DNA of 64,000 bases from Cinnamomum chago. Taxonomy: Eukaryota; Streptophyta; Magnoliopsida; Laurales; Lauraceae. Where the stretch lies: assembly GCA_038049695.1 (NCBI GenBank), contig CP142452.1, positions 29,128,501-29,192,500 on the forward strand, written 5' to 3'. The notes beneath the pieces are model-generated. The model was not told the DNA's origin. It searched no databases and was given only the letters and a program-made list of their open reading frames with translations. A program made the translations under genes and the position numbers. This document shows, in pieces, positions 18,203 through 46,098 of the stretch. Numbering within the stretch: position 1 is the stretch's first letter; the number at the start of each line of letters is the position of its first letter.

Positions 18203-18217
18203 TTCCCCAAACTTTTA
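18203..18217 (-). promoter_or_regulatory. Gypsy polypurine tract
   Basis: On the minus strand AAAAGTTTGGGGAA sits directly before the 3' LTR start (TGTTACACC). This is the primer site for plus-strand DNA synthesis. Confidence 0.75.
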
Positions 18218-18274
18218 GAACCATTCAATCCTCCGAATGCAATACAATTCGATAGTTAATTAAAATTAAAATTT

Positions 18275-21265: not shown

Positions 21266-21270
21266 GGTAT

Positions 21271-23490: not shown

Positions 23491-25475
23491 TAAATTGCAA
23501 AGGTACCTACACACATGAAACAAGGAAAATACCTTTAGTAGCACCTGTTAACAAATGAAATCGAAAATGAAATTCATAACAGGTTATCATGTATGGAAGT
23601 TATCTCTAAGGGCTCAAGGGCAATCCAAGGGTCAATTTGATCAAAACTAATACTTCCTATGAAGGTTTACACTCCCCCTTAATCCATTCTCTTCTTTTGT
23701 CAAACTTTTGACAAGATATAACTATTTGGTTCAAGAAGTAGATGGTTTAACCAAGTGAGGGTCAACTTCAAGGAAAGGATTAGATTCATTTAACTATAAG
23801 GCTCATATGATCAAATTACCAAAAGAGAGCAAGGTCTAATGAGAGAAACGATCATGGATACCAATTGAAATAAACATATCAATTGAGATTAAAGGATGTG
23901 ACTATAAACTTAATCACTCTAAAATGGATTTAAAAGTAAAACTATTACGAGAAATCCAAATTAGAGCTATCCATGATATGGAGTTTACTCAAACATAGCA
24001 TCAATCAATATTACTTATGAAAATCATATGCTATGTAAGGTTTTGAAAATCATTTCATTCAATCAATAAATATGACTTATTAAAGTGCAAATTGAGTGAA
24101 ATGAAATTCAAACATGAAGCCAACCTCAACTAATAACCAACCAAAATTATGAACACATAAACATGTTGGTCATGAGATATACCTTTAAGAACAAGAAAGG
24201 TGGCAATCATGAACATTATGATGCTAATGGTGTGTGACATGGAACAATCATATTACTTATCAAGTTCAATCCAATGCACACAAGGTTTATCACATTCTCA
24301 AGAAATCAAATCAATCAAAAATTATACCAATAGAAACCAATTGAATTTGATAACATGATAAAGAGCAAGAATGTGGCAAACTCCATCAAGCATCATAAAT
24401 GCATATTCATCACTTATATAGATATAACTATTGAGCATAGTGATGAACAAGAGAAATTGCGATGCAAAAAGATATGACTAGGTAAAACATGCAATTCTCA
24501 AAGTGTCCAAATCATATGAATTCAACAACTAAGATATCCATCAACCAACATAAATGAAGGAATGGATTTCAAAGAAATTCATATGATCAAGAACACTACA
24601 TATGAAGTTGAAACATGTATAAGGATGACACCAAGAGAATCTACATGAAACAACATCATAACCATCCATAAAGAAATTACTATAATGCAAAAAGGATGGA
24701 TTTGGGTTCTAGTATGGTTTCTACAAATGTAACTAAGGTCACAACCATACATGGAACCAATTGTCATTTGCATATTAAAAGAATAATTAAATAAGCAAAG
24801 ATGCAAACAACATTCATTTCCATTTCTAAGATAATGAAACCAAAAGAAAAAGGAAATGAGAATCATGGAACATGCTTGAATGAATATAACTAGTGATGTC
24901 ATAGAGCATTTCCAATCAAACAATCTTCAAATCATTTTGGTAAACAAAATCCAACAATGAGCATAAAAAGAATGATTTTGAAGATCAATTATCAACATTG
25001 TATTTGAAAAGATATAACTTAATAGAAACACATACAAGTTGATTATTCAAAACAATGATTTTCCATATTAATGTATAACTTATAAGTCCATGGAAAAACT
25101 TGAATTGATTCAAATCATTTGATTTACAAAAAGGATCTAACTAAGACATCCATCAAATGATTTAACAACAATTGATCATGAAAAACCTAGCTATGAAAGC
25201 TTTTGAAATCACAATCAATTAATCATGTAGAAATGCAATGCAAAACATAAAACTAAATGTGTGCAACAAGCAAATCAAACATGATGAAATTATAATCAAG
25301 AGATTTTGAAAACCATGACATGTAACTAGAATGGTGCATGAAGACAAAATCAATTGATCATAAAGAAACAATGCATTTTAACAAATGTAACTATCAATGA
25401 ACAAAATGCAAAGCAACATGACCAACAAAAGGATTTAACTATTAAAGAATAGGTTGGTCAAGGAGGTTCAAGGCC
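23491..25475. other. Internal non-coding region of the gag-only Copia element
   Basis: About 2 kb of AT-rich sequence with no pol or envelope-like motif on either strand. It occupies the place where pol would normally be. Confidence 0.6.
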
Positions 25476-27011
25476 TTAAGGTTTGACTAAGTAGATAACT
25501 TTTGGAACCCACCTAAGGTCTTGGGAGGGTTGAACTTTGAGGTCTATTTTGGACTTCTCACCAACTATAGGAGATTTAACTTGATAAATTTTCAATTTGA
25601 ACTTATCACCATGATATTTAGATTTTACTAAATTTGGCTTAGAATGGTGATTAGTCTTTTGATGTTGGTGAGTTTGTTTCTTTGGGGATTGCTTCACTTT
25701 TCTTTTCTTCTTACTTTCTCCCTTTACTTGACTTTTGAATTTTAGATTTAACTTAGCAACTTTCTTCAAAAGTTCTTTCATGGGTTCATATAAGGGAGAT
25801 ATGTTGAGAAGCTTTTTGTTCATAGATTCTTTTAAGCTTGGTTTAACTTGATTAACCTTTTTAAAATCTATCTTAGGAGACTCCATTTTAAAGGATTTAA
25901 CTTGTTTAGTCTTTTTGGAGTTTTCCTTGATTTTTAGTGTCTTACCCTTCATAGATTTTGATTCTACCTTCTTGAGTTCAAAGATGGGTTTAGACACGTG
26001 GCTTCTTTTTCTTAGTTTGCACTCAAATGTAAAGTGTCCTTCAATGCCACAATAATTACATTTAGACTTGGGCAAAGAAGTGTGAGTGCTAGAGAATGAG
26101 GACTTACCTTTCACAAAAGTGTTGGTGAATTTAGGGTCATAAGACATATTCCTATTAAATCCAATACCCGTCCTATCTCCATGAGGTTTACCCAATTTAA
26201 ATAATTTTTCAAGTCTATCTTCACTTTGGGTAACCTTGCACTCATACTTTTGTTTATTGCTTTCAAGTTGAGTGACTTTGGTTATAAGGATTGAATTTTC
26301 ATTTTTAACTTTTGAAAGTTCATTTTAAATTTCCTTATATTTGATTAGCTCTTCATTGGCAAGTTTTAATTCATTAACAACTTTAGATCCAAGTTCTTTG
26401 GTTTTTAACTTACTTTTGATCAACTTGGCTTCTAAATTGTCAAAGTCTTCATCTTGTCTTTTAATTGTATCTCTTAGGTTTAAATTTTCATTTTTAAGCT
26501 CATCACAATTTGTCTTAATCTCATTTAATTCATCTTGAGCATTAGATAAATTTTCATTAGAGATAGTCAATTTAGATTCAAGATTGTTAAAGTCTTTATC
26601 TTGCCTTTGTAATTGATCTCTTAGATTTAAATTTTCCTTTTTAAGATTGTCATAATCCATCTTTAATTCTTTTAGTTCATCTTGAATGTTAGATAGATTA
26701 TTTAAAGAGATCATGAACTTAGAGTTTAGACATTTTATTACTTCTTCTTTCTCTCTAAGTTCGTCTTTTGAAGAGGCTAATTCTGTGGTTAGATTCATAG
26801 ATTCTTCTCTTAAACTTTTGTTTCTTTTATCAAGCTTCGAAGATAATGTATATAATTCATTATATACTTGTTGAAGATCATCTTCATCATACTCAATTTC
26901 TTCCTCTTTTGAGTCAAATTGATATTCATTTAATTGATGGTTTGAATCTCTAATAGAAGGAAGAGTGAGAGGTCTAGAAGAATCTACAAAATCTAGCATA
27001 GTGGAGTCCAT
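25476..27011 (-). pseudogene. Copia gag-like protein: coiled coil and CCHC zinc knuckle
   Basis: One 512-codon frame starts at 27011, 92 bp after the PBS, and is broken by a single in-frame stop at 26322-26324. The first part (about 229 residues) is acidic and then strongly coiled coil. It has an internal repeat of roughly 49 residues built on NLS-QDEL--K--(Y/C)D-LK-ENLNLRD. After the stop the same frame continues through LGKPHGDRTGIGF to a CCHC knuckle (CNYCGIEGHFTFEC), then a long lysine/serine-rich tail. The usual N-terminal capsid-like segment of Copia gag is not evident. Role, if ever made: RNA binding and particle assembly, inferred from the zinc knuckle. Whether the stop is read through is unknown. 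Confidence 0.78.
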
Positions 27012-27102
27012 TCAAATGATTTTCAAGTAGTGACAACTCTAGGGTTTTAACTCTAGGTTTTTACACCTAATCAAGATACACTTGATCCTAATATAGAGCA
27101 CG

Positions 27103-27118
27103 AGGCTCTGATACCAAT
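27103..27118 (-). promoter_or_regulatory. Primer-binding site (tRNA-iMet) of the gag-only Copia element
   Basis: On the minus strand TGGTATCAGAGCC lies within 2-3 bp of the 5' LTR end, complementary to the 3' end of initiator methionine tRNA. Confidence 0.88.
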
Positions 27119-28845
27119 TGAAAGTCCTTGGGAATCCTAACCCTAGAGGGGGGGGGGGGGTGAATAGGATGAGCTACAACTATGACCAATTTAGACCAAT
27201 TTTAATTTCTTAACATAAATTAGTCACATGTGATGATTAATCAAACAATATGCGGAAGCTAATACAAAAACAATCACCACATAGCAATCACCACAACACA
27301 ATATTTATAGTGGTTCGGCCAACGTGCCTACATCCACTACCGGCTTGTGAATCCAACACCCCACCGGATTTCCACTAATTATGCTTTTTACTAGGCTAAG
27401 CAATAACCCTTACAATGTTGCTTTTCAAGGCTAAACAACAACCTCTCAATGTGCTTTTCTAGGTTTAGCAATAACCTTACAATATGCTTTTCTTAGGCTA
27501 AGCAATAACCTTACACAATGCTTTTCTTAGGCTAAGCAATAACCTTTACAAATAAAGCTTTCTCTAAGAAAGTGTCTTTACAAGATCACTCTAAGAGATT
27601 ACAATTTAAGCTCAAATGAAATTGCCTCTACATAGGCTAATATGAAAGTGTAATTCAAATTACAAACATACACTAAATGAGCTAAAGTGTGTGCACAAGT
27701 GTATGAATGCTTTTCTTCAATCGATTTTACAAATAAAGCTCTTAAATGAATGCATGATGCATTTTAAAATCAAAGCTTATAAAATGATGATTGAAGAGAA
27801 AGCTAATCACATAAAAGATTCAAACAACTTTGAAGAAATGAATTAAACAAGTTGTATGAATGTTAAAGTCTAAGAAAGCATGTGATTTAGTTAAGAGAGT
27901 TTGCAAACTAATCTAATTTACCAAGGATGATTTAGAGTTTGCAACACAACTCTTTAAAAGCTAGAAATCATGCAAATATGAAAATACAGAGATTTAACCA
28001 TGCATTGATTCTACTTTTAATGGAAATCAAAATGATAAGTAAGGTCTACCTTTTTAAATCTCAAGCATTTGATTTCCAAATGGCCCTTTAGCCTTTCCAA
28101 CTTCTTCCCCTTTGTTTGGCTCCAAAAATGGTCTCAAAGGTTCATGGTCAAAAAAAAAAAAGAAGTTGGAAATGAGTGGACTTTATAGCCAAAAAACAGT
28201 CCAACGGCTAGTTCTCGGTCGACCTAGACAACACAACGGTAAAAAAAGTGACCGTTGGAGCTTCAGGTCACAGGGACCCTGCAGTGACCTCGGTCGACCG
28301 AGACACAAGTCTCGGTCGACCGGCGACACTGCCGGGTGAGTGACCTGTTGGTCCAAAAATCCAACTTTTGCTCTTTTGAAGGTATTTCTTTGGGAGGATT
28401 TTTGGGCCACTAAACCAAGGTAGAATACATGTTTTAAGACATTCTAAGATGTTTAAAAACATGAAACACCCAAAGCCTAAAATGATTCAAAGTTTTAAAG
28501 CCAAGGGCTAGCTTGATTTGAATACAACTCTTTTCAAATGAAAATGCATACACAAATGATTCTTTTTGTGATGAATGTATGCAAAGCTCAAACCTAAATT
28601 CACAAGATGATTTTCCAAATATAATGCACAAGGAATTAGGTTTTCAAAAGAGTTTTGGGTTCTAAAACCAATGCATCCAAGTTTAGAACCAAAACATGCA
28701 TAAAACAAAAACTTTTCCAAAACTTAAAAGCTATGCATGTATAAAACCAGATTTCAAGGTTTTCTAAAACAATGCAAGTGTGAACTATCAAATGATGTTA
28801 AAGTGCAAATGCATCCATCAAATTGCAAATACAAAATTCCTAACA
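27119..28845 (-). repeat. 5' LTR of the gag-only Copia element
   Basis: Partner of 21271-23045. It contains the same GGTCGACC palindromes and one fewer 34-bp unit. Few substitutions separate the pair by eye, indicating a much younger insertion than the gypsy host. Confidence 0.9.
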
Positions 28846-28850
28846 GGTAT

Positions 28851-29224
28851 CATACTTCTTTCATACTCCTTCAAACATCACACTGGCATGGGCCTCGTCC
28901 ACTTTAAAAGTGATGATTTTGCGGAAACAATCTAAACAAGCCATGTACTTCGCAAGCCAATCCTTGCCAAATATTACATCGAAATCATTCATTGTTAGCA
29001 ACACCAAATCAGTTGGCATTGACACTTCCCCAATTTTCACACTGTATTGGGGAATATACAATTCACACACTACTCGTTTTCCTAATGGAGTAGTTACAAT
29101 AAAATCATAAGGTAATTGCATTACTCGTTCTTGAATATCATGACAAAATGAGGGTGCTATAAATGAATGAGTAAACCCTGCGTCAAATAAAGCAATTGCA
29201 AGTCTATTGTCTACCAGAATTGTA
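28851..29224 (-). pseudogene. Gypsy aspartic protease domain
   Basis: The minus-strand reading has IEGTILVDN, then LFDAGFTHSFIA, then VIFGKDWLAKY, the pattern of the retroviral-type aspartic protease of plant gypsy elements. The catalytic triad position normally D-S/T-G reads D-A-G, so activity is likely lost. The 5' side is separated from gag by the solo-LTR insertion and the 3' side from RT by the Copia insertion. A stop lies just before the Copia junction. Confidence 0.8.
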
Positions 29225-29984
29225 CCTTCTATTAGTTTATGGTCTCAATACCAAGGGTATATGATGTAATAAATTGATTAATTTCTTTATTTATCAATAC
29301 AATTCATGTTTTTCCTTTCATGGGATGAATGCTGTTTTATATACTTGCACATAACTAATACAAATGACATAATGGTTCATGAGATAAACCAGAGTCCATA
29401 AGTATACTAGATGTAATACATGTGTATGGATGAGATCCACATACAGGAGATATGTATTACAAATCTTATACTGAAATATCTTCACAACCAGTGATGAGAT
29501 TGGACACCTCATCTGACAAGGTTACAGCTTTTGATCACTATGAGATAGTGTGATTTATCTCGGTCCTCAGAATGTAAGATTCTGGATCATGGTGCTGGTA
29601 CATTGGATGTATTGAAGGACCATGAGAAGCACCTTATATACACTGTCTTTATTTTAAGGTCTGCTCTCATAATTCCCTAGCAATAGGCTCATAATCCTGA
29701 GACATTAATGAACTCAAGTTTCTATCTATTCATTTGCATTGAGTCACCAATGAGTGAGGCCAATTGTAGGTCAACACCTCGGTGATTTGGGTACGTGGTA
29801 GTAGAGCTGTGGGAACATTCAATGGTCAAGACGGAATCTATCTTTAATATCCCCTTGTGCCAATTAATAGATTTATCATTGGTAAGTGCGTACCCATTCC
29901 AATTAAGAGTTAATTGCACTACTAGAGGATCGAGTATTCGCGACTCAAAAGGGCGGGCGACCGCCAATACATCCCCCACGGATT

Positions 29985-30415
29985 TTTTTCTTTCTTTTCC
30001 TTCCCTCCTTCTTTTCCTTTCCCTATTCCCGTTTCCCCATTTCCCTCTTTCCCTCCCGCGCTCTAGTTTCCTTCTCCCGCTCTCTCTCCCTCCTCGTCGT
30101 TGTCGTCGTCGTCGTCGGATCTCTCTCTCCCTCTCTCTCTCTCTCTCTGTGTTTCTCTCTGCAGTGAAGGAACTCCTCTGTTTCTCTCTGCACTGACGGA
30201 ACTCCGATCCCCTCCTGCCGCACCAGCACCAGCACGACACGCCCTCTCTCTCTCCCTCCCCCTCTCGTTGCTCTCTCTCTCTCTCTCCCCCTCCCTTCCT
30301 CTCCCTCTCGCTCTGCACTGTGCCCTACCGCCACCAGTTCTCTTTGTTTCTCCCTCCCTGCGCCGAAGCCGCCACAGGTACTCATTCTCTCCCTCCTTCT
30401 CCCTCTCCCTCTCAC
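29985..30415. repeat. Pyrimidine-rich leader-like region near the CACTA left end
   Basis: Dense CTCTCT/TCCC tracts and GTCGTC repeats, then CGCCACAG|GTACTC, which looks like a 5'UTR exon end with a splice donor near 30377. ORFs on both strands here are low-complexity. It may be a promoter and leader of an acquired gene. Confidence 0.5.
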
Positions 30416-31839
30416 TTTATTTATGGTTGTCTTTGTTACATTACTTGATTTTTGGTTTTTTGTGTTGTTTGATCTGTGAATGGGTGAGTGGATTATCGAT
30501 GAATGAATGGGACTTTGTTTTTATATAAATGTTTTGTTGATGGCAGGGAAATTGATGGGTTTTTTGGTTTGTGATTTGGTTGATGTGTTTGAGATCTGAT
30601 TTCATGGGCTGATATAACCTCTAATTAAGGTTTAGAGGAAATGTTATATTTTTGGGTTTCTGTTATTTAGTGGGCTTTGATTCAATACTTCCACAGGTTC
30701 TTCATTGAGTGGTAGAACTTCCACAGTATCGGGGCCTTATGTGGTTGTGTGGTTGTTGATGATCCAAATTTTGGGTTGGAGAATTTTGTTACTTGCACTG
30801 TTAGTTGGTTGTTGGATTTTGGGTTACTGCTGAAATATCTGGATTGAAAATGCTCTTGAATGTGAGTTTGTTTGAACAAGTTAAAAATCTGTTTAAATTG
30901 GTCTAAACTGGTCTGGTCTGGGATAATCTAAGATTGGTCCAGGTACGTTTGCTTTATTTTTGCAAGATATGGAGACAATTTTTAGAACAAAATGCAAGCC
31001 AAAAACTACAAATTGGGGGGGCATAGAAGGCATTACAAAAAACGTCAGGTTTATGCACACCAGATTTAGAGCCCTTTTGGGTCTATGAATGCAGGCTTGT
31101 AAGTTTGTAACACCTGGCCATCGATTAGAATTTAGATGTAAATTGGGTTATTGATATTTAAATTTAGAGCTTAATTAAGCACAGGGCAAATGAGTTCAGA
31201 TTATCCATTAGCGAATGTGGTGTTTGTTTTGGGTCCGTTGGATTATGAAATGGCACGTGTACAACTGCTGAATCGAGATTCTCATTCGGTTTAAAACCTC
31301 CTTTGACTCTGATACAATCACAGTAGTCATCTCTGGGTTAATGCAGGTTTATTTTTCCTCGTTTTTGTTATTTTCATGCTGTCTATTATCTGTTTGCAAC
31401 TTTGCATTATTGGATAGATTTTCTTAGGCTTGGTGAATGATGACATTGATGTTATTGAGATAATATGAAGTTGGGATCTAGTTGTTGTCTGAACTCATGA
31501 CTTCTGTTTTTTGTCTTATATGTTTTTTGAAAGGAAGAATTGTATTTGCATTTTTGATTGATTGATTGGGGTTTCATGTAGAAGTTAGGCGTGGTTTGGG
31601 TATTTCTGTGTTATGTTTTGTGGATGGAATTCCCGTCCCCCCCCCCCCGGAAGGCCCGCTTATGAGTAGTTAAGAGAAGAGATACAAGAGCACAGATTGT
31701 AAGATGGGGCGGTTCTGGGGTTCGATTTCGAACCATGATGACTTCGGGGTTGTAAATTGTAAAAAGGTAATGCCAATGCTTTATGCTTCTAATTTTCTTG
31801 ATCAATAGTTATTTTATTTTATTTATTTATTTTTAGATT
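30416..31839. other. Intron-like non-coding part of the CACTA element
   Basis: T/G-rich sequence resembling a plant first intron, following the leader-like region. No coding exon is recognised. A short C run lies at about 31637-31648. Confidence 0.4.
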
Positions 31840-31920
31840 CACTACTAGAAATTTAGGCATCCACGGTTGAAAAAGCGGGCGACCGCTTTACAGCGGTCGC
31901 TAAAGCCCCTAACGCCCCCA
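31840..31920 (+). repeat. Second CACTA-type terminus inside the element
   Basis: Starts CACTACTAGAAATTTAGG, followed by GCGGGCGACCGC and AGCGGTCGCTAAAG, the same subterminal motifs as at 29917 and 41077. The preceding triplet is ATT, which does not match TTG after 41077. It may be the end of another, related element or an internal duplication of the left end. Confidence 0.7.
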
Positions 31921-32081
31921 CCCCACTTTTACTTCCCACGATTTTTTCCACTTTGCCTTCCCACGTTTTTTTTCCCTCTCTTCCCTTTCCGCTTTTCCCC
32001 TCCCATGCTGCGCTCGATCTACTCTCCCGCCGCACCAGTGACGATTCCGCCGGAGCCCACCTGCGCCGGAGATCTCTCCCT

Positions 32082-32083
<2 letters not shown>

Positions 32084-32124
<41 letters not shown>
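32084..32124. repeat. (CT)n microsatellite
   Basis: A CT run in a pyrimidine-rich leader-like stretch (31920-32130), repeating the organisation seen behind the other CACTA left end. Confidence 0.85.
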
Positions 32125-32169
32125 GGGATGTTTAGATGGCTGTCTCCTTTGTGTGGAAGTTCAATGGAA

Positions 32170-32345
32170 GTTCAATAGCTTAATTTCAAGGATGTCAGCT
32201 CTATTTGTGTTCCCTTCTCCAACCGAACCAGATGAGGCAAGCACAATTTGACCCTGATTGCTTGTGATTCCTCCTACTGTATGACCTTCCTGGATTACCT
32301 TTGGAGCTGTGCCATCTATATATTAAACTTGTGAAGCCCCTTGTT
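32170..32345 (-). pseudogene. LINE-type RNase H fragment
   Basis: On the minus strand one frame gives SSKGNPG and another gives VGGITSNQGQIVLASSGSVG followed by NRADILEIKLL. Together these match the start of the RNase H domain in plant LINE or RVT_3-type proteins. A frameshift joins them and no further domain follows. Confidence 0.6.
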
Positions 32346-32465
32346 GGTGGGGACATACATAGAGAACCTCCACCTGGAGGGTGCATAATTTGATACCGTG
32401 GCAGTGTTTCATTTGATTGCTAACAATAGCCAATGCCTTGGTTATAAAATTAGTTCTTTGTCCAG

Positions 32466-34280
32466 AAAGACGAAACTGTAGAGTTTTATAGAGAAAAGTT
32501 TGCTGGAAGTCAAGCTGATAGAATTGTGAAAACAGAAGCTGAAGCACAAAAGCTTGCTGAGCAGATAAAGAAAACAAAAGTTTCTGGTAATGTTCTTTCT
32601 GTTTCCTGTGATCTCTTGTTAACTCTTTTAATATAAATTGCAGAATGGTTTCTTTATAAGTGAAGTAAGAACTTTCACCCTTTCATAATAGTATTGCAGG
32701 TTGACAGATATTGCCATGTGATAACTTTGTGAAGAAATATGTTCAAATGCTCGAAGGATCTTTAAATAAATAATTTGCGAGTGTTTTATGACGTGGGCTC
32801 TCCAGCTCTTGACACATCGATCGCTTGAAGACAAAACTGAATACAGAAGTCATTGAATCTTTTTTTGCTCTTTCTGATATGTCATTTATAATTGTAATCT
32901 TCTAAAAAAATGATGTCATTTATGATTCAAATTTGCATCAACTTTTCTAATCAAATGATGAGTTGCCGTGAGCCCATGACCATGCCTGAATTGTTGAAGT
33001 GTGAAACACACTGTCTAATGATGGTGATGAATGGACTCTTGCAAGAGAAAATTGATGCTTTATTCTAAGAGAGAATTTCTATTGCTCACTCAAAATAGAA
33101 ATTCGTTTTATTATATCGTTATATAAATGATTTAGTGTTATTTATCAATAAAGCTTATTCATCATTTTCTCTCATATATATTATTGTATTATATCATACA
33201 CACACACATTGGAGAATATTCTACTGTGAGTCTTTTGATGTATCTGTTTATTTATTCATTTATTTTCATTATTTGAAGTATTGACTTTACTTTGAGGTGC
33301 CTCTTTCGTCACTATCATTTTTTAAGAAGAGACTAGTTCCTCCCTCTTTTTATTGAAAATAAAAGTGAATCTTTGAGGTGTTGTTTGATCATATAGTGTC
33401 CAGGTGTTTCTTTTTAGTCCCCTGTGACCCCATTTTCTTTAAGATTTAAGATAGACAAAGTCCCTCAGAAGTCAGAAATTCTTTGTGCTAGAAGTGACAC
33501 TTTCTTTGATAGATTTTTTTTACTGCTGAATATGTAGGTCAGTCTAGGAGTTGCATCAAATATGCACATAGTTGGCACGATTTGCTCTCTCTAAAGAGAG
33601 AGTTGAATTGCTTAGTTTTAGGATTGTATTTTGGTGCAGAGGAGAGAGCTAATTAATTATGTCAAACACACACGTACCCGTTTAAAAATGAACATCTCAT
33701 AAAGCAACCTCAAAACAGGGGAAAAAGTAACAAATCAATATGCTTTGTTGTTGTTTTCTGTGGCAATAGCTTTTTATAAGAAACCGTGGAGGGATTGAAT
33801 CTTGGTTGGTTGGTGGTTAGTTTTATTTTATTTTATTTGTTATTGCATGGCAGATGGAACTGGAAAGAAACAATGTCAAAGTAAGCCTGCGGCAGAAGCT
33901 AAACCGAAGGCAACTGAATTGGAAGTTTTTGTTTCAAGGCTTGATATTCGTGTAGGACTAATCAAGAAAGTTCAGAAGCATCCTGATGCTAATTCTCTTT
34001 ACGTGGAGGAAATTGACGTGGGTGAGGAATTACCATGCACTGTTGTTAGTGGCCTTGTCAAGTACATTCCTCTCGAAGAAATGCAGGTTTGTTCATTCTC
34101 TTGGCCGACTATTAGATTTTCTTCTAACATTTTAGCTTTGTTGAGTATATAATATGCTATATATGAATCCATGTGCAGAATCGGAAAGTTTGCGTTCTTT
34201 GTAATTTGAAGCCAGCTACCATGAGGGGCATAAAATCGCAGGCGATGGTTCTAGCTGTGTCCAACGATGACCATTCAAAA
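32466..34280 (+). pseudogene. Methionyl-tRNA synthetase C-terminal fragment (three exons) captured in CACTA
   Basis: Exons 32466-32586, 33854-34086 and 34179-34280 have canonical acceptors and donors and keep one frame (phases agree: 121, 233 and 102 nt). The first encodes EFYREKFAGSQADR and AEQIKKTKVS, the linker of plant cytosolic MetRS. The second and third encode the EMAP-II/Arc1p-like tRNA-binding OB fold ([48 protein letters not shown]). In the full enzyme this domain binds tRNA non-specifically and supports charging in the cytosol. The catalytic domain and the final exon (after NDDHSK) are absent. Proteasome sequence begins about 210 bp downstream. The intact frame suggests recent capture or some constraint. 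Confidence 0.85.
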
Positions 34281-34490
34281 GTAAGTAGGAAAAGAACATC
34301 TATGCAGTTACCTTCCTCCTCCACCATCACCAACCTTTCTTTCTATGTTCTGTGAAATCTGTTTTGTCTTACTCTCTTTTGAATTCTATCTTTCTTGTTT
34401 GGTTGATGGATTTCAAATTACTAAGGATGGAGGCCTAGTGATAATGTCTTATATTTGCAAATATCAACATCCTGTTCATGAGCATCCTGC

Positions 34491-35091
34491 TATCACTATG
34501 ACATGTCAATTGAAGAAGCTGCTGAATTAGATAGACGATCTATTTATCATGTGACTTTTCGCGATGGAGCTAGTGGTGGAGTTGCTAGCGGTTTGTTCTT
34601 AATATCGCATATTATTATAAAGCATTATGATCTGGCGCCTGCTTTTGCATAATTGCTCTTTCCTTCTGGTTTTTTATCTTGTGGGGTCTATTTCTTTGCA
34701 TTTTCTTTCTTTTTTCGTCCATTGCACTTCAATTGTTTGATGCCCAGGTTTATATGGTTTTCAAAGTGTAGTTTTTTGACTGACAATGGGTTGGCCTCTC
34801 GCATTGTAGACACCAGATGGGGCATTAAATGCCAATGTGTGGATCTGTCTACTCACTAGTTGACCATTTATGCTCTTGAGAATCAAGTATAGAGTACATA
34901 ATCTCGAAAAAGAACTTTGTGAGTTTGCATGTTGGCATAACTTGTTATGATTTTATGTTTCGGTTTATTACGTTGGACCGGATGGTTGGAAGAAGCTTTC
35001 TGGGGATGATGTTGGAGAACTTCACTACAAATACTACCCAGTTGTTCCAAGCTCTGTTGAACAAGAAATGGCTAAGGTGGCAGCAACGTGA
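34491..35091 (+). pseudogene. Proteasome subunit beta type-5 C-terminal fragment captured in CACTA
   Basis: Two pieces: 34491-34590 encodes YDMSIEEAAELDRRSIYH and TFRDGASGGVAS; 34964-35091 encodes VYYVGPDGWKKLSGDDVGE and ends QEMAKVAAT and a stop. These are the last about 75 residues of plant beta-5 (PBE), the chymotrypsin-like subunit of the 20S core. The catalytic N-terminal threonine and the first two-thirds are missing. The donor (G|GTTTGT) is good, but the acceptor position reads GG where AG is required, so normal splicing is broken. Similarity starts abruptly at 34491, marking the capture boundary. It has the same orientation as the MetRS exons. Confidence 0.85.
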
Positions 35092-37771
35092 GAGGTTTGA
35101 TTATCGATGGGCATCCATTCCGCTTTTCTTTGCTTTCCCTTTTAACATTTGAAGGCAAACTTCAAATTGGGTTTTTTTTTTTTTTTTTTCTTTTAGTGGT
35201 ATCAGTATATGGAGTTTTTGGACTAAATTGGGTTTTGGATGACAAGTTCATAAGAACAGCTCCCTTGACAGAGGGATTGAGCAGGTCTGTCTTCTATTCT
35301 CTTTTCCGTTCAACACCCATTTGTTTTTCCTCTTTTGATGTCATGGAATGTCTGCTCTTGGGTTTCTTTCTCTGTTTTTTTTTTTTTGGTTTTAGCATAA
35401 ATGATCTGGGTTTTGGATGATAAGTAGTCCCATGGCTGTTGTTCTTCAGTTATTGGGAGTTTTTTTGGAAGTGGGGTTCTTGAAATGGTTTTGGAGTGGT
35501 GGAGATTCATGAGAAGGACTGGGATGACATGTTTGGATCCTATTGTTAAATGGATATCAGGTTTTTTTTTTTTTGGTAAAAAAAAAAGGGGTATCAGTTG
35601 GTTTTGTTTCCTTGCTGGGTGTATGTGGATCATGATGTATCAGTGAGGTTGAATTGAGTGATTCGATTTTTGTATGTTTAGAGTTGGTTTTCTGTTGGAA
35701 TAGCAATTCAGTGATTGTTTTGCTTTTGTGACATCTATTTGAGAATTTGACTCAAGTTATATCTCGATTTGAGAAACATAATTCTTTTATCCCATCCCGA
35801 CATAGTTGGGACAAGCTTAATTTAATGATGGTGGGAATGATAATTAAGTTACATGGCCGAAAGGAGGTTACAGCATATGAAGTGACAAAGGATATGCCTT
35901 ACATCTAAGAATTAGATGTGGTGATGTAGATGATGGAGATGAATTTTTTCTTTAGATTGATTCCTTTTCGACTATTAGTATGATCAAAATGTTTGGTAAG
36001 TTGTAGAATAAATGTCAAATCCATTTATGCTGGCCATTAAAATCCCTGTGCAACTTTTCCCAATTGGGTCCCTATGCCAGCAGGAAAAACGTGTGGACCA
36101 CAGATACCCATACTTCAATGGTCCTCATTTCCTTCTTACAATGAAGGAAGAAAAGTACAAGATGATGAGCAATGAGGGAAAAAAAGATGAACTGATGAAA
36201 TATGGAACACCCACATCAATGTTCAATATCCATGAATCTTATCAGAGCCAGATCAAAGATAGTACAATAATGGAAAGTGGACCCCCGATTGATGTTGACT
36301 TCCTCAGTCCATTCGATCAGCCAGATGTGGGACCGTAGAGCTTTTTCTTGTGGGGCATGTGGCCACACCTGATCATCATCCATCTGCCCTTGTTTTCCAA
36401 GTCCTTTTGAGTCCAAAATAGAGTAATGTGGTGGGAGTCCAACACAACAGGCATAGGACATCTCTTGATAATCTCTTGGGTACCCATTACTGGTACATGA
36501 GGTTACCCATGTAACTAGATTGGCAAAATGAGCTTTTTAGGTGATACTTCCATACAGATCCAGGGCAAAGGTGGGAAGAACAGATTACCTTCCCAATTCT
36601 GTTCTTGCCTTTCCAAAGAATCAAAACAGAGACCACCCCACTTATTCTAGTGCTTTGGTTATATTCCTACCACCAAATAGTAACATGGATATTGTTTGTC
36701 ATAGTGTTACTATGTTAGTATCAGGTGATGGAATGGCCCTAAATAATTGAGCTCTTACTGGATAAAGAAGAATTGGAACATTAAGAAAATTAAAGAAAAT
36801 TTCTTTCTTAATGGATTACTGGGTGTTTGGATAATATCAAGGTTTGTGCATCCTGAAAGTGACAGAACCACATAGCTGTTGCCAAAACTGAAGTGTTGTA
36901 CATTTTATTTGCAATACTTATGTATATGATTTTGATTGTTACTTTATGGATCATCTATATGATATCTTTTCAATGTTACATAGTTGATAAATGACAATTT
37001 CATTTTTTTTTTAATCATCAAATCTGTTGATGTGCATTTGAGTGAGAATTTGTGGAACTTCATTGACTTCAAAGGCAACTGAATGAATGCTTCAGTTATA
37101 ACCACCCAAAAGGAAGATCAAAGAATGGAAAGACACTGAAGGAAAAAAAAAAAAAAAGCAACAGGCACAGGCTCAGTGCACAGCTGAAACTAATGGTCAC
37201 ATGAGGTTACCCATGTGACATCTCTTGATAATCTCTTAAAACAGAATCTCTTTTAAAATAAGGAGTCCTATGTGCAAATAAGTAGAATCATTGGTTTGGT
37301 GTTCCTGGTGAAATCAAACCATTTCAACCTAATTCCGAACTTGACCAGATTGTTATTGAACATTTACTGAATTAAACTGAGAATTACTCAAATGAAATAT
37401 TGAAATTGTATCATTTGGACTGTCATGGGACAAATGTCGCAGCAACAGCAAAGGCAGTAGTAATGTAAATATTTCTAAAAATAATAAAATAGTAAACTCA
37501 TCTCAGTCCAAATATAACTATAGAGAAAAGGATAGTACAATTAACCCTAAAACAGGTTACAATTGAAACTAAAAGAACCCACAAAACTAAGACATCATCA
37601 ACGCACATACATGATAATAAACAACACATTATAAGATAACAAGAAAGATATTACAAGGTAAAGTGAAAGCTAAGACATCATTAACACCAAATTATATATA
37701 TATATATATATCTACACCTGTGAAAGCTGAGAGAGAGAGGGGGCTAATTAAGGACATTGTTGCTTAAGCTT
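35092..37771. other. CACTA interior without recognisable genes
   Basis: Includes T runs (about 35172, 35380 and 35563) and a phrase TCCCGACATAGTTGGGAC near 35793 that occurs in some plant SINE-like repeats. The 108-residue plus ORF at 36012-36338 has no motif I recognise. Confidence 0.4.
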
Positions 37772-37941
37772 CTTATGGTTTTATGCTTGAATTTGATTTT
37801 CATGATTGCGAAAGTTTCTTATGGTTTTATGGTTGAATTTGATTTTCATGATTGCGAAAGTTTCTTATGGTTTTATGGTTGAATTTGATTTTCATGATTG
37901 CGAAAGCTTCTTATGGTTTTATGGTTGAATTTGATTTTCAG
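37772..37941. repeat. 46-bp tandem repeat
   Basis: About 3.7 copies of a 46-bp unit starting CTTATGGTTTTATGGTTGAA, at 37772, 37818, 37864 and 37910, nearly identical. The last copy is cut at TTGATTTTCAG. Confidence 0.92.
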
Positions 37942-38029
37942 AGATTCATGTGAAATCGAATGGCCGATTCCTACCTATGTACTTTTTGTAACACACTAAT
38001 GGTATTTATTCCTTGTTAAGTTATATTAG

Positions 38030-38894
38030 GATCATAAGAGGTACTTGGCGGAGCGCGAGTTTGAGGCATTAAAGGATCGAATTGCTGGGAAGCGAATAGG
38101 ATTTACAAGGGTTTCTTGCATAAATGCAACACTTCCATTGTCACAAATATTAAGCTCTTCAGATGATTTATGTTCTACTTGTAAGGTATGAAGATTGCTG
38201 GTGTGCAGTATCCAATCATCCATTATGAGCTTGTCTTCGCACCTTAACATTATCGAGCGAGAAAGAGTTTCCATTAGTGTATTACAGGAGAAAAGAATAT
38301 ACAAAAGATGCTTATCATTGACATTGTATCACTATCTACATCCATCAGATAACACATCTTGAAAGCATTAAACATGTGTTAATTGTCTTTGAGCTTTGAA
38401 CCTTCACTTGAACTTTTTTTTTTTTTTTTGGTCCTCACCTTGGTGCATTTTTGGGGGTCCCTCACTGAATATTTGTTGAGTGAATTATTTATTTGTTCTA
38501 GTCATAAACATTTGCAGACACCCGATTTTCCAACTCTTAATGTTAGTGATCCTCATTGGTCCATGTGTGGTTCAATGTTCTAATTTGTTCTTACCATTTT
38601 GATATTTCAAAACGTCATCAAAATGTAATAAAAAGATTGTGATTGTTACCACTGCCTGATTCATAAGTTGGCTGATCTGAAATGGTTCTTAACGAACAGC
38701 TGATGAGGCCTGCACTATGTATTTTGCAGTGTAGGAGAAGAAATTGTATTGTTCACCTCTGAGTGACTCATATAAAATGTTTGTGGTGTATTATGTAGTT
38801 TTCTGAGAATGGAGAAGATCGAGTTGTGGTTGGGACGTTAGATCTTAACCAATGCTTGAGGCTGGCAGATGAAATAACAGGGAAGAGACCAGAG
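38030..38894 (+). pseudogene. Putative GNAT acetyltransferase fragment (two exons) captured in CACTA
   Basis: Exon 38030-38185 (ATTAG|G ... AAG|GTATGA) encodes 52 residues including YLAEREFEALKDRIAGKRIG. Exon 38799-38894 (TGTAG|TTT ... GAG|GTAATA) encodes 32 residues including RVVVGTLDLNQCLRLADEI. Both are phase 0 and fully open, so the pair reads through. VVVGTLDL resembles the beta-strand before the acetyl-CoA site in plant plastid GNAT proteins. The acetyl-CoA-binding loop and the rest of the domain are absent. The family call is from memory of the motif and is tentative. The exon structure itself is convincing. Confidence 0.6.
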
Positions 38895-40679
38895 GTAATA
38901 TTGGACATGTATAAGGCTATTTTTCCTAGATGAATATCAATAAATTGTAGGATCAAGCACGTAATCTTCCTGCATTTCTGGTTTTATGTTTGTAGTTTAG
39001 AATGTTATTGATGTGATTATACTAAGTATTGCCATATTGAAATTCTAAAATTGACTTGGAATTTCTGAAATTTCTCTGCGTTTGTCACCTTGATGCAAAC
39101 TTTTCCTTTGGAATAAATTACTCAAGTCTGGTTGAAACCCCTGGCAGGGTAATTGGGATCTCATGATCTAAAAAAAAAAAAACTTCTTTAGAACTTTTAA
39201 CTTCCCAATGATATTTTTGCATGCCATATTAGTACAAGAATGAGAAACATAACATGTATGTTAACAGTGTATTGGACAGCTTTTATGCGAGTAGAAGTTA
39301 CCTACTTTGGTTTGTTGACAAAAGGTCAGAAAACAAGACATATCCAATAATCTCAGTGATTCGAATATGAATATCAAATAGTAGCAACACCCCATTTCCA
39401 TGGATTGTGTGCACTTTATCTAGGGCAGGCCCCCTCCTCTGGATAGGTCCATGTGGATTAGACCCGGTTGTATAGATCCAAATATGAATATTAAGGGAGA
39501 GGATAAAGAGGCAGTGGAGTGTAGGTGAGCAGTTGTGATTTAGTTTGCTGTTCATTTCAGGGTGGGTGGGTAGGATGGCTGATGGCCTATTCATTTCAAG
39601 AGGTTAGACCGGCAAATGGTAATTGGAGAAGTAGCTGGTGGTCTTGTTCTATTTTTTTCTTTTATTGCTCTTCTTCTAGAAATCTTTGTCTTTTATTGCT
39701 AGTTTTTTTAGGAATACTTCAGGTAATTGGGTGTATTGGGCCCATTTGCCAACCTGATCCATCTTTCTTTTTTTGCCAAGAAATTCAAGACTACCCCTGC
39801 AGTAAAAATATTGGATGAACAAATTTTTTTGGGTGGTTGTAAGTTACTAGAAGTAGAAATCCCAGTCATTTAGGATAATGGTAAAAACTGCATTGTATTC
39901 ACCTTTAATTATTATAAGTTGGCAGATGAGTACTATCTTTTAAGGAACTGATAAACTCATCTTGAAAAGTCAGATACAATGAGGGATTATGAAAAGCCAT
40001 GTTTTTCTCTTGTTGCTTTTGGAATGAATGGAAAGGGAGTTGTTGGGGGGACTATGCCTTCCAATTCATCATCAACAACGGGGGTATTGACACTTAGGAG
40101 GATTACCCATACACTATGAGTAGTTCGGTGTCTTTCTTTCCTTTTTCTTATGTGCTCTTCTTGAGTTGGGATAGTTGTTCTAGCTACAGGATTCTTTGAA
40201 CCTCCAGGAGATTTTTCCCAACTAACAAGTTTGTATTCCAAGAACTGTCGGGACGAGATTCCGACTCCTAGATTGCTCGTAATGTTGAAACGTACGTTAA
40301 AATTTTAATTTTAATTCTTAACTTTTTTATATTTAGTATAAATTGCCAATTTTTATACTTATCTTTTAATATTTAGTTTTCTTTTTCTGTTTAGGTTTGA
40401 GAGCATCGGATATACCACGGCACCCGGCACGGAAAATTTTTCTTTTTCCTATAATTGTAATGGATATATTTTATTGAAACTTTTGTAATGTTTTGAATGC
40501 AATTAATATAAGACTTTCTTTTTTTATTTGTAATTTTAATTGATGGTAGTAGTTGTATATATTTAGGCTTTGTTATTTGTAATTTTAATTGATAGCAGTA
40601 GTTGTATATACTCAGGTACAGGTACAGGTATAAAAAAAAGGAAAAATTTTGAGAAAATACGGAATTTAAAAAAAAAAAA
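38895..40679. other. CACTA interior, unrecognised
   Basis: Non-coding by eye. The minus ORF at 39987-40241 has no motif I know. The AT-rich zone at about 40300-40620 with a repeated TTTGTAATTTTAATTGATGG phrase resembles the 3' untranslated zone near CACTA right ends. Confidence 0.4.
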
Positions 40680-41060
40680 TCTTACTGGCGGCCGCTAAAA
40701 GTACTTTTAGCCGTCGCTAATAGTTTCAAAAATTAAAAAATAATAAAAATTCAAAAAAAAAAAAAACAATGTATTAGCGACCGCCAGATGAGTATTAGCG
40801 ACCGCTAATACTTAAAAAAAATTCAAAAAAAAAATTCAAAAAAAATGAGGCATTAGCGACCGCTATATGTAGTATTAGCGAAAGTCCAAATTTTTTTTTT
40901 TTAATTTATTTGCGACCGCCCTGTAGCGGTCGCAAAAAGTATTAGCGACCGCCAGTTACCTTTAGCGACGAGGTTTTCGCGGCCGGCGCTTGGCGGTCGC
41001 TAAAGAGTATTAGCGACCGCTAATTGACTTTTAGCGACGGCAAGTGGCGGCCGCTAAAAG
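40680..41060. repeat. CACTA right subterminal repeat array
   Basis: About 14 copies, in both orientations, of a motif around TTAGCGACCGC or its inverse GCGGTCGCTAA. Examples lie near 40685, 40778, 40796, 40855, 40912, 40926, 40942, 41001, 41015 and 41048. Such arrays in En/Spm elements bind the TNPA-type protein. Confidence 0.88.
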
Positions 41061-41623
41061 TCAATTTTCTAGTAGTGTTGGATCGGTACCAAATTGTCAT
41101 TATAATTAATTGGGGCCCAAGGATAATAAGATATGGGACAGGTCCATTTGATCCATGGATATAGATGGAGGGGCCTACTTGTGGTACTGAGGAAGTTTAG
41201 GGTCTTCATTGTAATATATTCCTAAGACTGGAGTACAATTGCATTTATATAGTAGAGTTATTTGCAATTAACTGTGGGCCCGGATTGCACATGAGATGTG
41301 GGGTCGCATGTCCCAGTTGGAGCCAGCTTTCTAAGGAATCCTTAGTGGTCCCCACGCTAGCCCAATTTATTAGAAAGATACTAATTCTACTTGAACTCTA
41401 AAAGGAAGGTTACTATTTCTATTTGAAGTGAGACTTCTAATAGTGGTAATAGTAAACTACTAATTATTAATGGAAGTAGGACTTCTATTTTAATTAGAAA
41501 GGAGAAAGCTACTAATAGTTGTGGAAGTGAGACTTCTATGGCAATTAGCAAGGGAGATGTTTACTAATTTGTAATGGAAGTTAAACTTCTATTTCAAATA
41601 GGAAAAGAGGAGGATTGGAGGGC

Positions 41624-41630
41624 TATAAAT
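41624..41630 (+). promoter_or_regulatory. TATA box of the solo LTR
   Basis: GGCTATAAATAGAGG, followed about 30 bp later by a leader-like pyrimidine-rich stretch (41700-41760). It supports plus orientation of the solo LTR. The 76-residue ORF at 41824 lies in the R-U5 part and is not called as a gene. Confidence 0.5.
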
Positions 41631-42147
41631 AGAGGAATTATCCCCTCTTGGTCGTGCATCATACATAGAGCAACTTTAGCCCCTTTGTGCAAGTGTTGCA
41701 CAAGTCCTCTTCCTCTCTAAGTTCCCCTCTCTTTCACCTTTAGTTCCTTAGAGTTACTAGTTGGGTTTTCTCTTGAAGATTCCACCATCTTCTTGATAAA
41801 AGAGATCTAATACGGGTCATAGCATGGAAGATCAAAAAGGAGTTGGAGATTCTGAATTGGATAGTGAAAGTGTTTATCACCAAAGGAAAGAACTCAACTT
41901 CTCCATTAGAACACTACAAGGCTCCAAAGGTATATCTACATCCTTGTATGCTGTAGATTTCGTGGTTGCATGTTTATGTGCTATTTTCTATCTTCTAGAT
42001 AGGTTAAGTTGCTGCACATGGTTTATGAGATTGAGGGATTGCATCCTGGATTGAGTTTAATGCCTTCTAGACAATTGATCCCTGCGTCAAGTGGGTCAAA
42101 AGTTTTTGAAACCAGTCTGGAAGGCCCACCTATATTCCAACACCTTC

Positions 42148-43467
42148 AACCACATTAGTGGCAACTTCAGCTTATTCTCGATTCACCGCATAGGCCTGTC
42201 CCACAAGCTGTGGTCTATTCTGCTGCGGTTGTTGCCTTGGTTTCCATTGACGTTGCTGGCCTTGACGTTGGGGCTGCTGTTGTTGCCTAGGAGGAGCTGG
42301 TAAAGCCAACTGTCGTAGAGGAGCAGGAATCACTGCTTGTCCTTGAACAAGCGGCTGATATGGAGCTTTGTTATCTCTTCCGCCTTTAGGAAACTGAGCC
42401 ATTCTGTGTTCCAAAGAACCACAGACTAGACATGCTCCAGTGTTCCTCCAACATGCCTCAGTCCTATGAGCTTTGCCACAAGTCTCACAGACTGGCCTAT
42501 TCTCTGTTCTTGCAGCAAACTTTTGCATCTTGTTCTTATGCTACCCTCCTCCTTTCTTAAACCAGGAGCCAGTATTGCTACCACTGTTCTTCTTTGAATT
42601 TTCAGTCATTTCTTCTTTATGCACCTCTTCGGCCATAAAGGCTCTGTCAACAGCTTCCCCAAACGTAGTGGGCTTATTAGATGCCAGCACCATCTTTTTG
42701 TATGTGAGATTTAAACCTTGGAGGAACCCCTTCACCTTCTTTTCCTCGGTATCCGCCAAATCAGTGGCGTACTTGGACAATTGCAGAAAGGTGTGCATAT
42801 ATGCTGACACAGTCATTTGTCCTTGCTTCAGATTCAGAAATTCCAATTACGTCCTCTGTTGGATGCGTTCTGGCACAAACTTCCTTCTAAACTGTTCCTT
42901 GAAGGTTTCTCAGATGTCATCTCCTAGTGCTGCCAAGAGTGTATCACTGATATTCTTCCACCATGTTTTTGTTTCCTCTCTCAATATGAAAGTGGCAAGC
43001 AAAACCCTCTGCATTCGTGTGCAGACTATTGTCCCAAACACATCACCGGTGTGCTCTAACCATTCGTCTGCCAGTATAGCACTTTCATTACCGCGGAACT
43101 CAGTAGCTCCTCTTTTTCGGAACTGCTTATAAAGGACATTAGAATCATTTTCCTTAGACTGTACTACCACCTGCGTTCCCACATTAGGAGGTGGTCAGAC
43201 CGGTTGAGCTTGTAACTGAGCCTGCAGCTGAGTTTGCGTTTGCAACAAGGCAGCAATCTGAGCTTGCATACCCATTTGGGCCTCATGACTTTTGGCCATT
43301 TGCTCTCTATTGTGAGCTTGCATAGCCATTTGTGCTTTGTGGCTCTTTACTAATTGCTCTAGTATGGCAGTCATCCTAGTATCAGCATCCGTTATGGGAG
43401 GAGAAGGTGTGGTACCATCATTGACGATAACTTCAACAAAGTCATCACTCCCTGATCCAGATGCCAT
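42148..43467 (-). pseudogene. Gypsy gag with capsid-like domain and zinc knuckle
   Basis: The start ATG at 43465-43467 gives MASGSGSDDFVEVIV, then a Q/A/M-rich coiled segment. Next comes the retrotransposon gag core (ATEFRGNESAILADEWLEH, FLNLKQGQMTVSAYMHTFLQ, FLQGLNLTYKKMV), then CCHC-type knuckles (CETCGKAHRTEAC and CLVCGSLEHR). It is broken into about four pieces by in-frame stops near 43190, 42900-42847 and 42535. The second knuckle appears to lack its last cysteine. The frame runs on toward the protease but is cut at 42147 by the solo LTR. Role in an intact element: virus-like particle assembly and RNA packaging. Confidence 0.87.
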
Positions 43468-43641
43468 CTGTAAACAATAAGGAAAGGTAAGTTCACATCT
43501 ATACCATTCCGTCCCATACACATTACATGTAGTAAAAAGCAATAACACAAATCCAAGAGTGGATTTGTACGCAACTCAACGTTCCTCACAACGTGCTTAT
43601 AATTTTCTAAGTCTTTTAAGTTTTCCCTTGTTCTTAACTTC

Positions 43642-43653
43642 GTTCTGATACCA
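43642..43653 (-). promoter_or_regulatory. Primer-binding site (tRNA-iMet) of the gypsy element
   Basis: TGGTATCAGAAC on the minus strand, 11 bp after the 5' LTR end at 43665. Confidence 0.82.
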
Positions 43654-43664
43654 TACAATAAGTA

Positions 43665-46098
43665 TGTCACGACCCGGACCCGAATTATGATAACCCCGGG
43701 CCGTGAGCCCATACTTACTCCCGTGAACTTCGAATTAACCAAAGTTAAAACGGAATCTACAAGGGATAACATCTTCAATAAACCTGTCAAATACACAATA
43801 TTGCTGAAACACGTATATTTGACAATATCAAATTTCGATTTACATGTATACAAAAGAATAAGGTCCTTATACATGTATCATTCCCATCATTTTTTTATCA
43901 ATCGGTGTGTACCCAAAACACCATGCAGTAACAATTAATTACATATCAAAATGGTTAACAAAATAACTTTTCAAAACATTTCTCAAAATATTATAGTTCT
44001 TTCGCGCACTCGAATACCCATATCAAATGGTATTCCGTCCGTTCCATTCGTTCAGTCCTCCTGGAGGAAGCGGAGCGGTCTCCTCCGCTGGTGCCGGGGG
44101 CGCTGCTGCATCGGCAGTGGCAAACGGGCCTGTGATGTCATCAATAATACTGATGAACACGACGGTTCAACAATGTATAAACAAATCTTGTAATAGCACA
44201 TGCTAATACATATACTGAATTCATTAAATCCATTTGGTAACAATTACCATTTTAGACAAATCTAGATAATTCCTACAATGACAATAGGTAAACATAAGAG
44301 TTGATCAATAAACATTCACAAGATAATCACTATCATAGCTTTCATTCATTCATTTCATTTCATTTACCATCTTCCCTTAAAGGAATGACCCATCTTCCGA
44401 ATGGAAGGCATCGATCAATATCCATAGATATGATCAGAATATGTGAGACTTAGTAGTGTCTGTGCCAGGGACAACTAGCATCACCACGAAACTCCGGAAG
44501 GCCCCCAAATCCATCTACTGCAGTAGGATTATTCATTTCATTGTTACCTTTAGTAACTGTTCATTCATTAATTCATTCATCTATTGTATTGTTTAGTTCA
44601 GCTCTGTAACGAGCTTAAGGAATTATTAAGTAGTGCCAGACTCGGAAATCGCACCATAGCTATTAACTCTATCCAAGTTCATAATCAAATTCCTAAACCA
44701 AACAAATGGGTGAAACGCTTGTTATTTAATGTACGTATTATTCTTGATGAACATCACTTGTATAATAGTTTGTACATTCAAATAACCTTAGCTAACAGCT
44801 ATGCAGGTTTAGATAACACATTTGAAGAATTAATACTTAATTCATTACCATTTTTTTCTTTTAATTTCCTTAATCTTGATAATCTTAGATTAGGGCATAA
44901 TTAGTTCTAACACTAATTTATAGACCACTAAGACTCATAGAAAGCATAATTGGTTCCAAAAGGGCCAATTTCAAGGTCCGATCGATCGGCCCGAAAAACT
45001 TTCAGTTAAATGATAGTCCGATCGATCGGACCTGGGACGAGTTGCAGGTCTGAAAATCTGATTTTTCTCCCATTTCCTTTCTTCTCTTTCATACATTCAA
45101 ATCATTCCCAACCTACAAGAAAATGGAACTTCATGTTCCCTTTTTATACATCATCACTATCCATTTCAATCAATCCATAAACAAATTTCCAAAACTTAAT
45201 GGAAAATACATAAACTCCAAATCCATGGAAAACTTAATGAACTTTTACAATGATTAACACTAATCACAAGCAAATGTTTATACTTGCCTCTCTTGAACTT
45301 TAGTTAACTCAAAGCCCCTTGTTTAGCTTGCTTTTGAGATGAAAAACCCCAAAATGAAACCATAATTCCATGAAAACACAAAATACACAAATCTATAAGT
45401 CATTTGTGCTAGAAATCATGCCTAAGCACTCCTTATGACTTGTAAACTCATTAAAAACTCCAAACACTTACTTGTAGTTCAACTAGAGGGGCCCTTAGCT
45501 TTAATTAAGAGAGATTTGCACTTCCTCTCCAATGAACCAAAAGGGAAGGTGAAGAAGATAAAATTGGTGAAGCTAGCACCCCTTCAATCACACATATAAG
45601 CTCCCTTCTTGATGCTTGACAAGAAAAATGGAAGAAAATGAGAAGAATGAGTCTAGGGTTTGGTTGAAATGAGGAAATGATTCATTCCATTCTAATATAA
45701 GACCATCTTACACAAAACCCCCTCTTAATAAGTCAAATTACATTTTGGGTCAAATGAAGTCTCATTTGGTCCATTTGAGGTCAAATGGAGTCGCGTCTAT
45801 TATGAAAGTTAACGTACTACTCGAGATATACGCGTTGGTATCAAAGATTTTCGTATTTGACAAAATACGTGCTAACTCGTATTTACGGAAAAGTCCTTAG
45901 CCTACCTTATTTGAGTCTAAACTCACTTTAACCAATTCAATTTCATCTTAGTCCATTCTATTACGCTTAGTGCATCATTTGAGACTAATTTATCTTTCTT
46001 TGGTCATTAACCTTCATTAATACGATTATTCATACTTAATTAGCATTAATCCCAATGAATTAGCCTTAATCGTGATTAGTTTGGGTCGGGGTGTAACA
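43665..46098 (-). repeat. Gypsy 5' LTR
   Basis: Starts TGTCACGACCCG on the plus strand and ends GGGTGTAACA. It is 2,434 bp and is followed by TTGTT. It carries GATCGATCGG palindromes at about 44980 and 45020. It lacks the CATGG insert of the other LTR, providing the empty site. Confidence 0.9.

Follow-up and report, generated by a model that had tools for sequence, protein, structure and literature searches.

A composite Pack-CACTA element in Cinnamomum chago, very probably formed by fusion of CACTA elements

Pack-CACTA elements are described from Arabidopsis, rice and maize (Gisby and Catoni 2022, PMC8903248; Catoni et al. 2019, as related in PMC8903248 and in the review PMC13317346). PMC8903248 also sets out a tandem-insertion and remobilisation scheme, in which fusion of neighbouring insertions is proposed as a route of DNA uptake. 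The target duplication of CACTA elements is given as 3 bp in PMC8978399 and as 5 nt in PMC8903248. The fusion model of gene uptake by Pack-type transposons is hard to see in finished elements. We describe here an element from the laurel family tree Cinnamomum chago, lying in a stretch of 64,000 nucleotides (hereafter the window; assembly GCA_038049695.1, contig CP142452.1, positions 29,128,501 to 29,192,500). It is very probably a composite, nested, non-autonomous Pack-CACTA element that arose by fusion of CACTA elements. The one genome has two donor genes with their breakpoints, siblings with exchanged cargo, a relative of the inner-end type, transposase-encoding relatives and an internal end, and together these relatives make the order of capture, fusion and movement directly testable.

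The element (coordinates of all features are in Table 1) begins with CACTACTAGA and closes with TCTAGTAGTG, so that CACTA terminal inverted repeats are present. Across the 64 kb, the 10-mer CACTACTAGA is present at exactly three places, at 29917 and 31840 on the plus strand and at 41068 on the minus strand. TTG stands beside both 29917 and 41077, and the probability of a chance 3-mer match in the host long terminal repeat (LTR) is about 0.02. The last 420 bp hold 14 matches to GCGACCGC/GCGGTCGC with at most one mismatch, at 12 places, two of the sites being palindromic; 200 shuffles counted identically gave a mean of 0.4 and a maximum of 4. At the left end the subterminal repeats are weak, with one motif match near the outer left arm (L1). 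No transposase family was found in Pfam at E values up to 1 in six frames of 29917-41077, and Rfam gave no match in the window at the gathering score. The CACTA-type inverted repeats, the 3-bp target-site duplication, the subterminal repeats and a tnp2-encoding relative sharing the L1 arm place the element in the CACTA superfamily. The absence of a transposase of its own, the tracing of its methionyl-tRNA synthetase (MetRS) and GNAT7 pieces to donor genes, and sibling copies with their own duplications make it a Pack-CACTA. A preliminary description, made from the letters of the window, had proposed a CACTA element at 29917-41077 with a TTG duplication, captured gene pieces and no visible transposase. 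The ends, the duplication, the subterminal repeats and an empty site described below bear out the element, the six-frame search agrees on the transposase, and the capture reading is supported; the composite structure and the family membership of the cargo of MetRS and proteasome beta-5 (PBE) are additions to it.

The evidence for fusion comes from the left side. A second intact left end (L2) lies inside the element at 31840, and the relatives of the sequences on either side of it are separate. For the outer arm, the stretch 30400-31830 has three other full-length matches in the genome at 98%, loci K, M and N, which are 93-96% identical to 29917-31839; the divergence (K) over 30400-31830 is 0.0084 to loci K and M and 0.0149 to locus N. 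All three loci continue past 31839 into GTTGTGACTTGTG, whereas the window instead starts CACTACTAGAAATTTAGG directly after ATT. For the inner end, sibling C5, an element of 8,954 bp with an ATT/ATT duplication, starts with L2 itself, with one mismatch in the first 10 bases. Since the L1-type loci are uninterrupted at 31839 and C5 starts with L2, a MetRS-carrying Pack-CACTA was inserted into the 5' region of a transposase-encoding element. Transposase content was tested in locus K, one of the three L1-type loci. It encodes Transposase_21 (PF02992, E 5e-91), DUF4218, Transpos_assoc and DUF4216, and the other two loci are 96.5% and 98% identical to it across 5.2-5.6 kb. The element thus has the internal relict end of a fusion, with separate relatives of both parents (C5 on the one side; K, M and N on the other). 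Within the L1 arm, a segment of about 250 bases (30400-30648) has at least 30 further matches at 97-98% among the best 40 of 125 candidates, so the family of such left arms is large.

The right side is less simple. The block 40236-40632 shares 95-96% identity with siblings A and C and with locus K, 92% with siblings D and I, and 88% with siblings C5 and C2b. The right-end tree groups the window with A and C (0.85), while the long branch of C5/C2b attaches on the same side of K as the window (0.73). Over the last 60 bases the window has 13 differences from locus K, owing to an indel in K, and 13 from C5. The tree does not make the right end an outer-element end. The simplest account would be loss of the inner right end, probably by deletion. 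An account with no deletion would have the transposase pair the outer L1 directly with the nested element's own, still intact right end, moving everything between. Such a pairing needs one step only, L2, an intact end of 12 bp, agrees with the right end more closely than L1, and the tree does not group the window with locus K alone; the window's 88% identity to C5/C2b, as against 95-96% to A, C and K, leans the other way without settling it. We regard this pairing as a tentative possibility. In siblings A, D and C5 (L010, L016 and L035), several copies of a sequence related to window positions 40236-40321 are arrayed in tandem, at a spacing of about 178 bp, ahead of the right end; self-comparison of the window shows no such tandem array in its right-end region.

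The MetRS piece has 22 matches in the genome, comprising the window, the donor gene, a 76% match that is presumably a MetRS paralogue, and 19 others. Twelve of the 19 were examined with broad flanks and two (L030 and L031) with short flanks, and five were left out. The right junction of MetRS at 34304 is common to all 12 siblings with broad flanks, which points to one capture. Nine of these (A, C, D, E, F, G, H, J and C5) have two ends and a matching 3-bp duplication, and in B, I and C2b one end is not recognisable within the stretches examined. The siblings differ in cargo. One group consists of A, B and C, with a DnaJ piece in A; another runs from D to J, with a CTP synthase piece in D; and the left halves of A and D do not match each other. 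The first PBE exon is absent from both groups via an identical junction, which was resolved to the base in A, B, D, I and G. Siblings D-H and J are six copies with six duplications, with substitution differences of 0.07-0.19%, and this near identity suggests that the family moved very recently. The GNAT stretch 37950-38950 has two matches in the genome, the window and the donor, so there is no second copy of the GNAT-bearing form in the host genome. The preliminary description had held that inconsistent ends in other copies would undo the capture reading, and had proposed a genome search for the same cargo. The ends proved consistent in the nine siblings just listed; the cargo search succeeded for MetRS, in 12 siblings, and found no second copy for the GNAT-bearing form.

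The donor genes show where the pieces came from. The MetRS donor lies on C9, where residues 241-799 of the Persea protein are collinear (residues 1-240 fall outside the stretch compared). Homology between element and donor is bounded at 32178 and 34303, with K=0.0172 over 2124 bp. The GNAT7 donor lies on C8 and has an N-terminal exon that the element is without. Here the homology runs from about 37760, in a tandem repeat, to 39217, with K=0.0183 over 1272 bp (37945-39217). The donor sequence on C8 is not identical to the Persea protein, and residues 177-269 of GNAT7 were not found within the 6 kb of that locus examined. A 46-bp tandem repeat occupies 37755-37984 at the left edge of the GNAT piece, and the donor has matching repeat units. 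Each of the two cargoes is an internal piece of its gene. Because introns are included in both captures, the source was DNA. That the capture was from DNA and not from mRNA had already been proposed, along with the alignment to host genes that now confirms it at two donors and provides breakpoints and divergences. The idea that the GNAT capture was younger than that of MetRS, drawn from Persea proteins as a stand-in, was dropped when the real donors gave K of 0.018 and 0.017. Gene fragments are also carried by Helitrons and Pack-MULEs, as PMC1947982 notes, and the pieces could have been brought by one of these and later merged into a CACTA element. That origin is very unlikely. Nine siblings have the MetRS piece enclosed by CACTA ends, and of the 142 internal inverted-repeat pairs the 25 longest include none over 40 bp, most being A/T tracts or CACTA subterminal repeats. 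A strict scan for a Helitron-like 3' end (hairpin, CTRR) found none, and found none in shuffled sequence either, so its power is uncertain.

The element stands in a solo LTR, itself enclosed in a Ty3/gypsy element. When 29230-42142 and one CCTTC are excised in silico, the gag and protease stretch of the gypsy element is rejoined in frame, one stop excepted. An insert-free copy of the LTR adjoins sibling G on another contig, its halves being 95% and 90% identical, and its junction is the expected empty site with one base different. An element inside a solo LTR, with an empty copy of that LTR elsewhere, excludes a resident MetRS gene at the locus. An intact MetRS gene continuing here had been named as grounds for rejecting the capture; the gene sits on C9.

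Spliced in silico, the cargo gives 152 stop-free codons of MetRS, 75 codons and a stop of PBE, and 84 codons of GNAT. Identity to the proteins of Persea americana is 95% for MetRS (85% for its paralogue), 95% for PBE and 98% for GNAT; in the PBE search an Artemisia protein is higher in bits, but at 79% identity, and Persea is closest by identity. These figures uphold the earlier reading of three, two and two exons, respectively, all in plus orientation. That reading counted three gene fragments; all three are there, and a fourth, of a papain-type protease, lies at 40050-40112. It also had introns and splice sites retained. The introns are, as seen at the two donors, and 11 of 13 exon borders are canonical, including 10 of 10 for MetRS and GNAT, but the acceptor of the second PBE exon reads GG. 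The PBE donor site is kept, and there is no AG where PBE homology begins. At the second acceptor AG is present in both C5 and C2b, so of the three copies compared the loss is confined to the window. An open frame at 36080-36340 was set aside as a gene: it has no Pfam match (plus frames), and by a hand estimate an 84-codon frame is expected by chance. Two short blocks, at 36452-36515 and 37199-37237, are each present twice with the order reversed, as if by template switching.

Every recognised fragment lies in sense orientation, and the end of MetRS exon 3 and the start of GNAT exon 1 are both in phase 0, their in-frame join giving 236 open codons. One may picture an expressed exon trap, in which the left arm of the transposase element would give a promoter and a 5' splice donor to a chimeric in-frame MetRS-GNAT mRNA. 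There is an analogy in soybean Tgm-Express1, whose CACTA cargo is spliced into chimeric transcripts according to PMC1947982. Set against it are the loss of the PBE acceptor, a MetRS exon divergence that is not below that of the introns, and the state of MetRS in the siblings, where D and I have a stop and C5 a frameshift. An exon trap of this kind seems unlikely. More generally, a Pack-CACTA nested in the 5' region of a transposase-encoding element might acquire the promoter of that element and, in the same sense as the cargo, its first splice donor; fusion, besides enlarging the element, would then make of it a mobile, promoter-driven exon trap, yielding in-frame MetRS-GNAT7 chimeric RNA upon derepression of the transposase gene. 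We consider this reading improbable.

The divergence figures bear on whether the cargo is kept as protein. Exons of the MetRS piece differ from the donor by K of 0.020 (9 changes in 456 bp) against 0.016 for the introns, and the codon changes are 6 nonsynonymous and 3 synonymous. On sequence grounds the MetRS cargo looks unconstrained. The stop in D and I and the frameshift in C5 mean that the family spread independently of a MetRS-coded product. Five of the six nonsynonymous changes fall on the captured side, taking the residue shared with Persea as ancestral, and each of these five is C>T or G>A. Of the 36 changes across the entire MetRS piece, 14 belong to this type and 12 run the opposite way, so we claim no methylation signature; an earlier tally based on Persea (7 clear captured-side changes, 6 of them C:G>T:A) is superseded by the comparison with the real donor. 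The cargo is probably not maintained as protein, and is most likely passenger DNA whose sole selected property is carriage by working ends.

We propose the following history for the composite element. A CACTA lineage took up an internal stretch of MetRS as DNA, beside a PBE piece, and spread. A member of this MetRS-PBE lineage inserted at ATT in the 5' region of the transposase-encoding CACTA type. A transposase acting in trans then presumably mobilised the composite as a whole, probably once the inner right end had been deleted. The GNAT piece would have been taken up in the window's lineage alone, because the GNAT stretch matches only the window and its donor. The element in the window retains, within a single TTG duplication, the left arm of the outer element, the left end nested in it, the cargo of MetRS and PBE, the GNAT7 piece and a right end closest to that of A and C. 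The divergences to be fitted to this order are about 0.017-0.018 for the captures, 0.008, 0.008 and 0.015 for the left-arm relatives, and 0.045 for the LTRs of the host retrotransposon.

Several observations weigh against this history. The right end is 88% identical to C5/C2b, the type expected of the inner element. Locus K (L041 464 to L044, composite position 11297) has CACTA ends with unmatched flanks, GAA and ATG, and an in-frame stop within its DUF4218 stretch. L030 and L031 carry MetRS 33787-34074 alone, hence without the shared junction. The PBE donor gene has not been singled out, the PBE stretch having at least 66 matching pieces in the host genome (best 40 of 64 candidates), and no donor was found for the papain-type scrap either. 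Finally, the 252 bp of GNAT exon sequence show 2 changes, a number too small for a verdict, against an intron K of 0.021; this is compatible with constraint and would not exclude it.

Table 1. Features of the composite element and of its insertion site (window coordinates).
Feature	Position	Strand	Remarks
Ty3/gypsy element enclosing solo LTR	15080..46098	-	duplication TTGTT; LTR K=0.0446
Solo LTR holding the element	29230..42142	+	1,749 bp minus insert; duplication CCTTC; insert-free LTR copy elsewhere
Left target-site duplication TTG	29914..29916	.	letters flanking left end
Composite Pack-CACTA element, whole	29917..41077	+	11,161 bp; ends and TTG/TTG; paralogous empty site in LTR copy beside sibling G
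Outer left arm (L1)	29917..31839	+	5' end of transposase-encoding CACTA type; promoter/5'UTR-like and intron-like by inspection
Inner left end (L2) of nested Pack-CACTA	31840..32123	+	target ATT in outer arm; CACTACTAGAAA intact
Captured MetRS piece	32178..34303	+	exons 32466-32586, 33854-34086, 34179-34280 and introns; donor on C9, K=0.0172
264 bp with first PBE exon	34362..34625	+	absent from A-C and D-J (ten elements)
PBE fragment	34491..35091	+	exons 34491-34590, 34964-35091 with stop; second acceptor lost
Last stretch that the element shares with siblings C5 and C2b before right end	37188..37418	+	98.7% identity
Captured GNAT7 piece	37760..39217	+	exons 38030-38185, 38799-38894; left edge approximate (tandem repeat); donor on C8
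Papain-type cysteine protease scrap	40050..40112	+	21 codons, in-frame stop
Right end with subterminal repeats	40236..41077	-	closest to siblings A, C; nearly as close to locus K; far from C5/C2b
Right target-site duplication TTG	41078..41080	.	letters flanking right end

The surroundings contain other features. A young LTR element at 21271-28845 (duplication GGTAT, LTR K=0.0094) has a minus-strand zinc-knuckle frame and is nested between the protease and the reverse transcriptase of the gypsy element. A frame at 50672-51739 with SURP and CID domains is probably the first exon of a host RNA-processing gene. The stretches 56044-56520 and 60535-60918 are about 70% alike and hold minus-strand frames, the first of which matches RVT_3.

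Our literature searches found nothing on Pack-TYPE elements in Lauraceae, nothing linking CACTA gene capture with aminoacyl-tRNA synthetase, and nothing relevant on CACTA gene fragments in avocado; CACTA with Lauraceae gave Citrus only. Multi-gene Pack-CACTA elements and their fusion are already known, and the window element is an unusually well-resolved case. It resembles the Pack-CACTA elements of PMC8903248 in being a non-autonomous CACTA element whose ends enclose pieces of host genes from more than one locus. It differs from the cases there in that relatives of both fused parents are in the same genome, the insertion point is base-exact and the inner left end is intact. Its duplication of 3 bp agrees with PMC8978399 rather than with the 5 nt of PMC8903248. 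Like soybean Tgm-Express1 (Zabala and Vodkin 2007, PMC1947982), it is a CACTA element holding exons and introns of unrelated genes with splice sites kept; Tgm-Express1, 5.7 kb long, occupies an intron of a flower-colour gene, the gene from which it is transcribed, whereas the window element lies in a retrotransposon and is known from sequence. Gene pieces captured by CACTA are likewise found in the transduplications of grapevine (PMC2528002, in part). The grapevine examples given there are a ULP domain and one PPR piece beside a transposase frame, whereas the window element has four gene pieces and no transposase.

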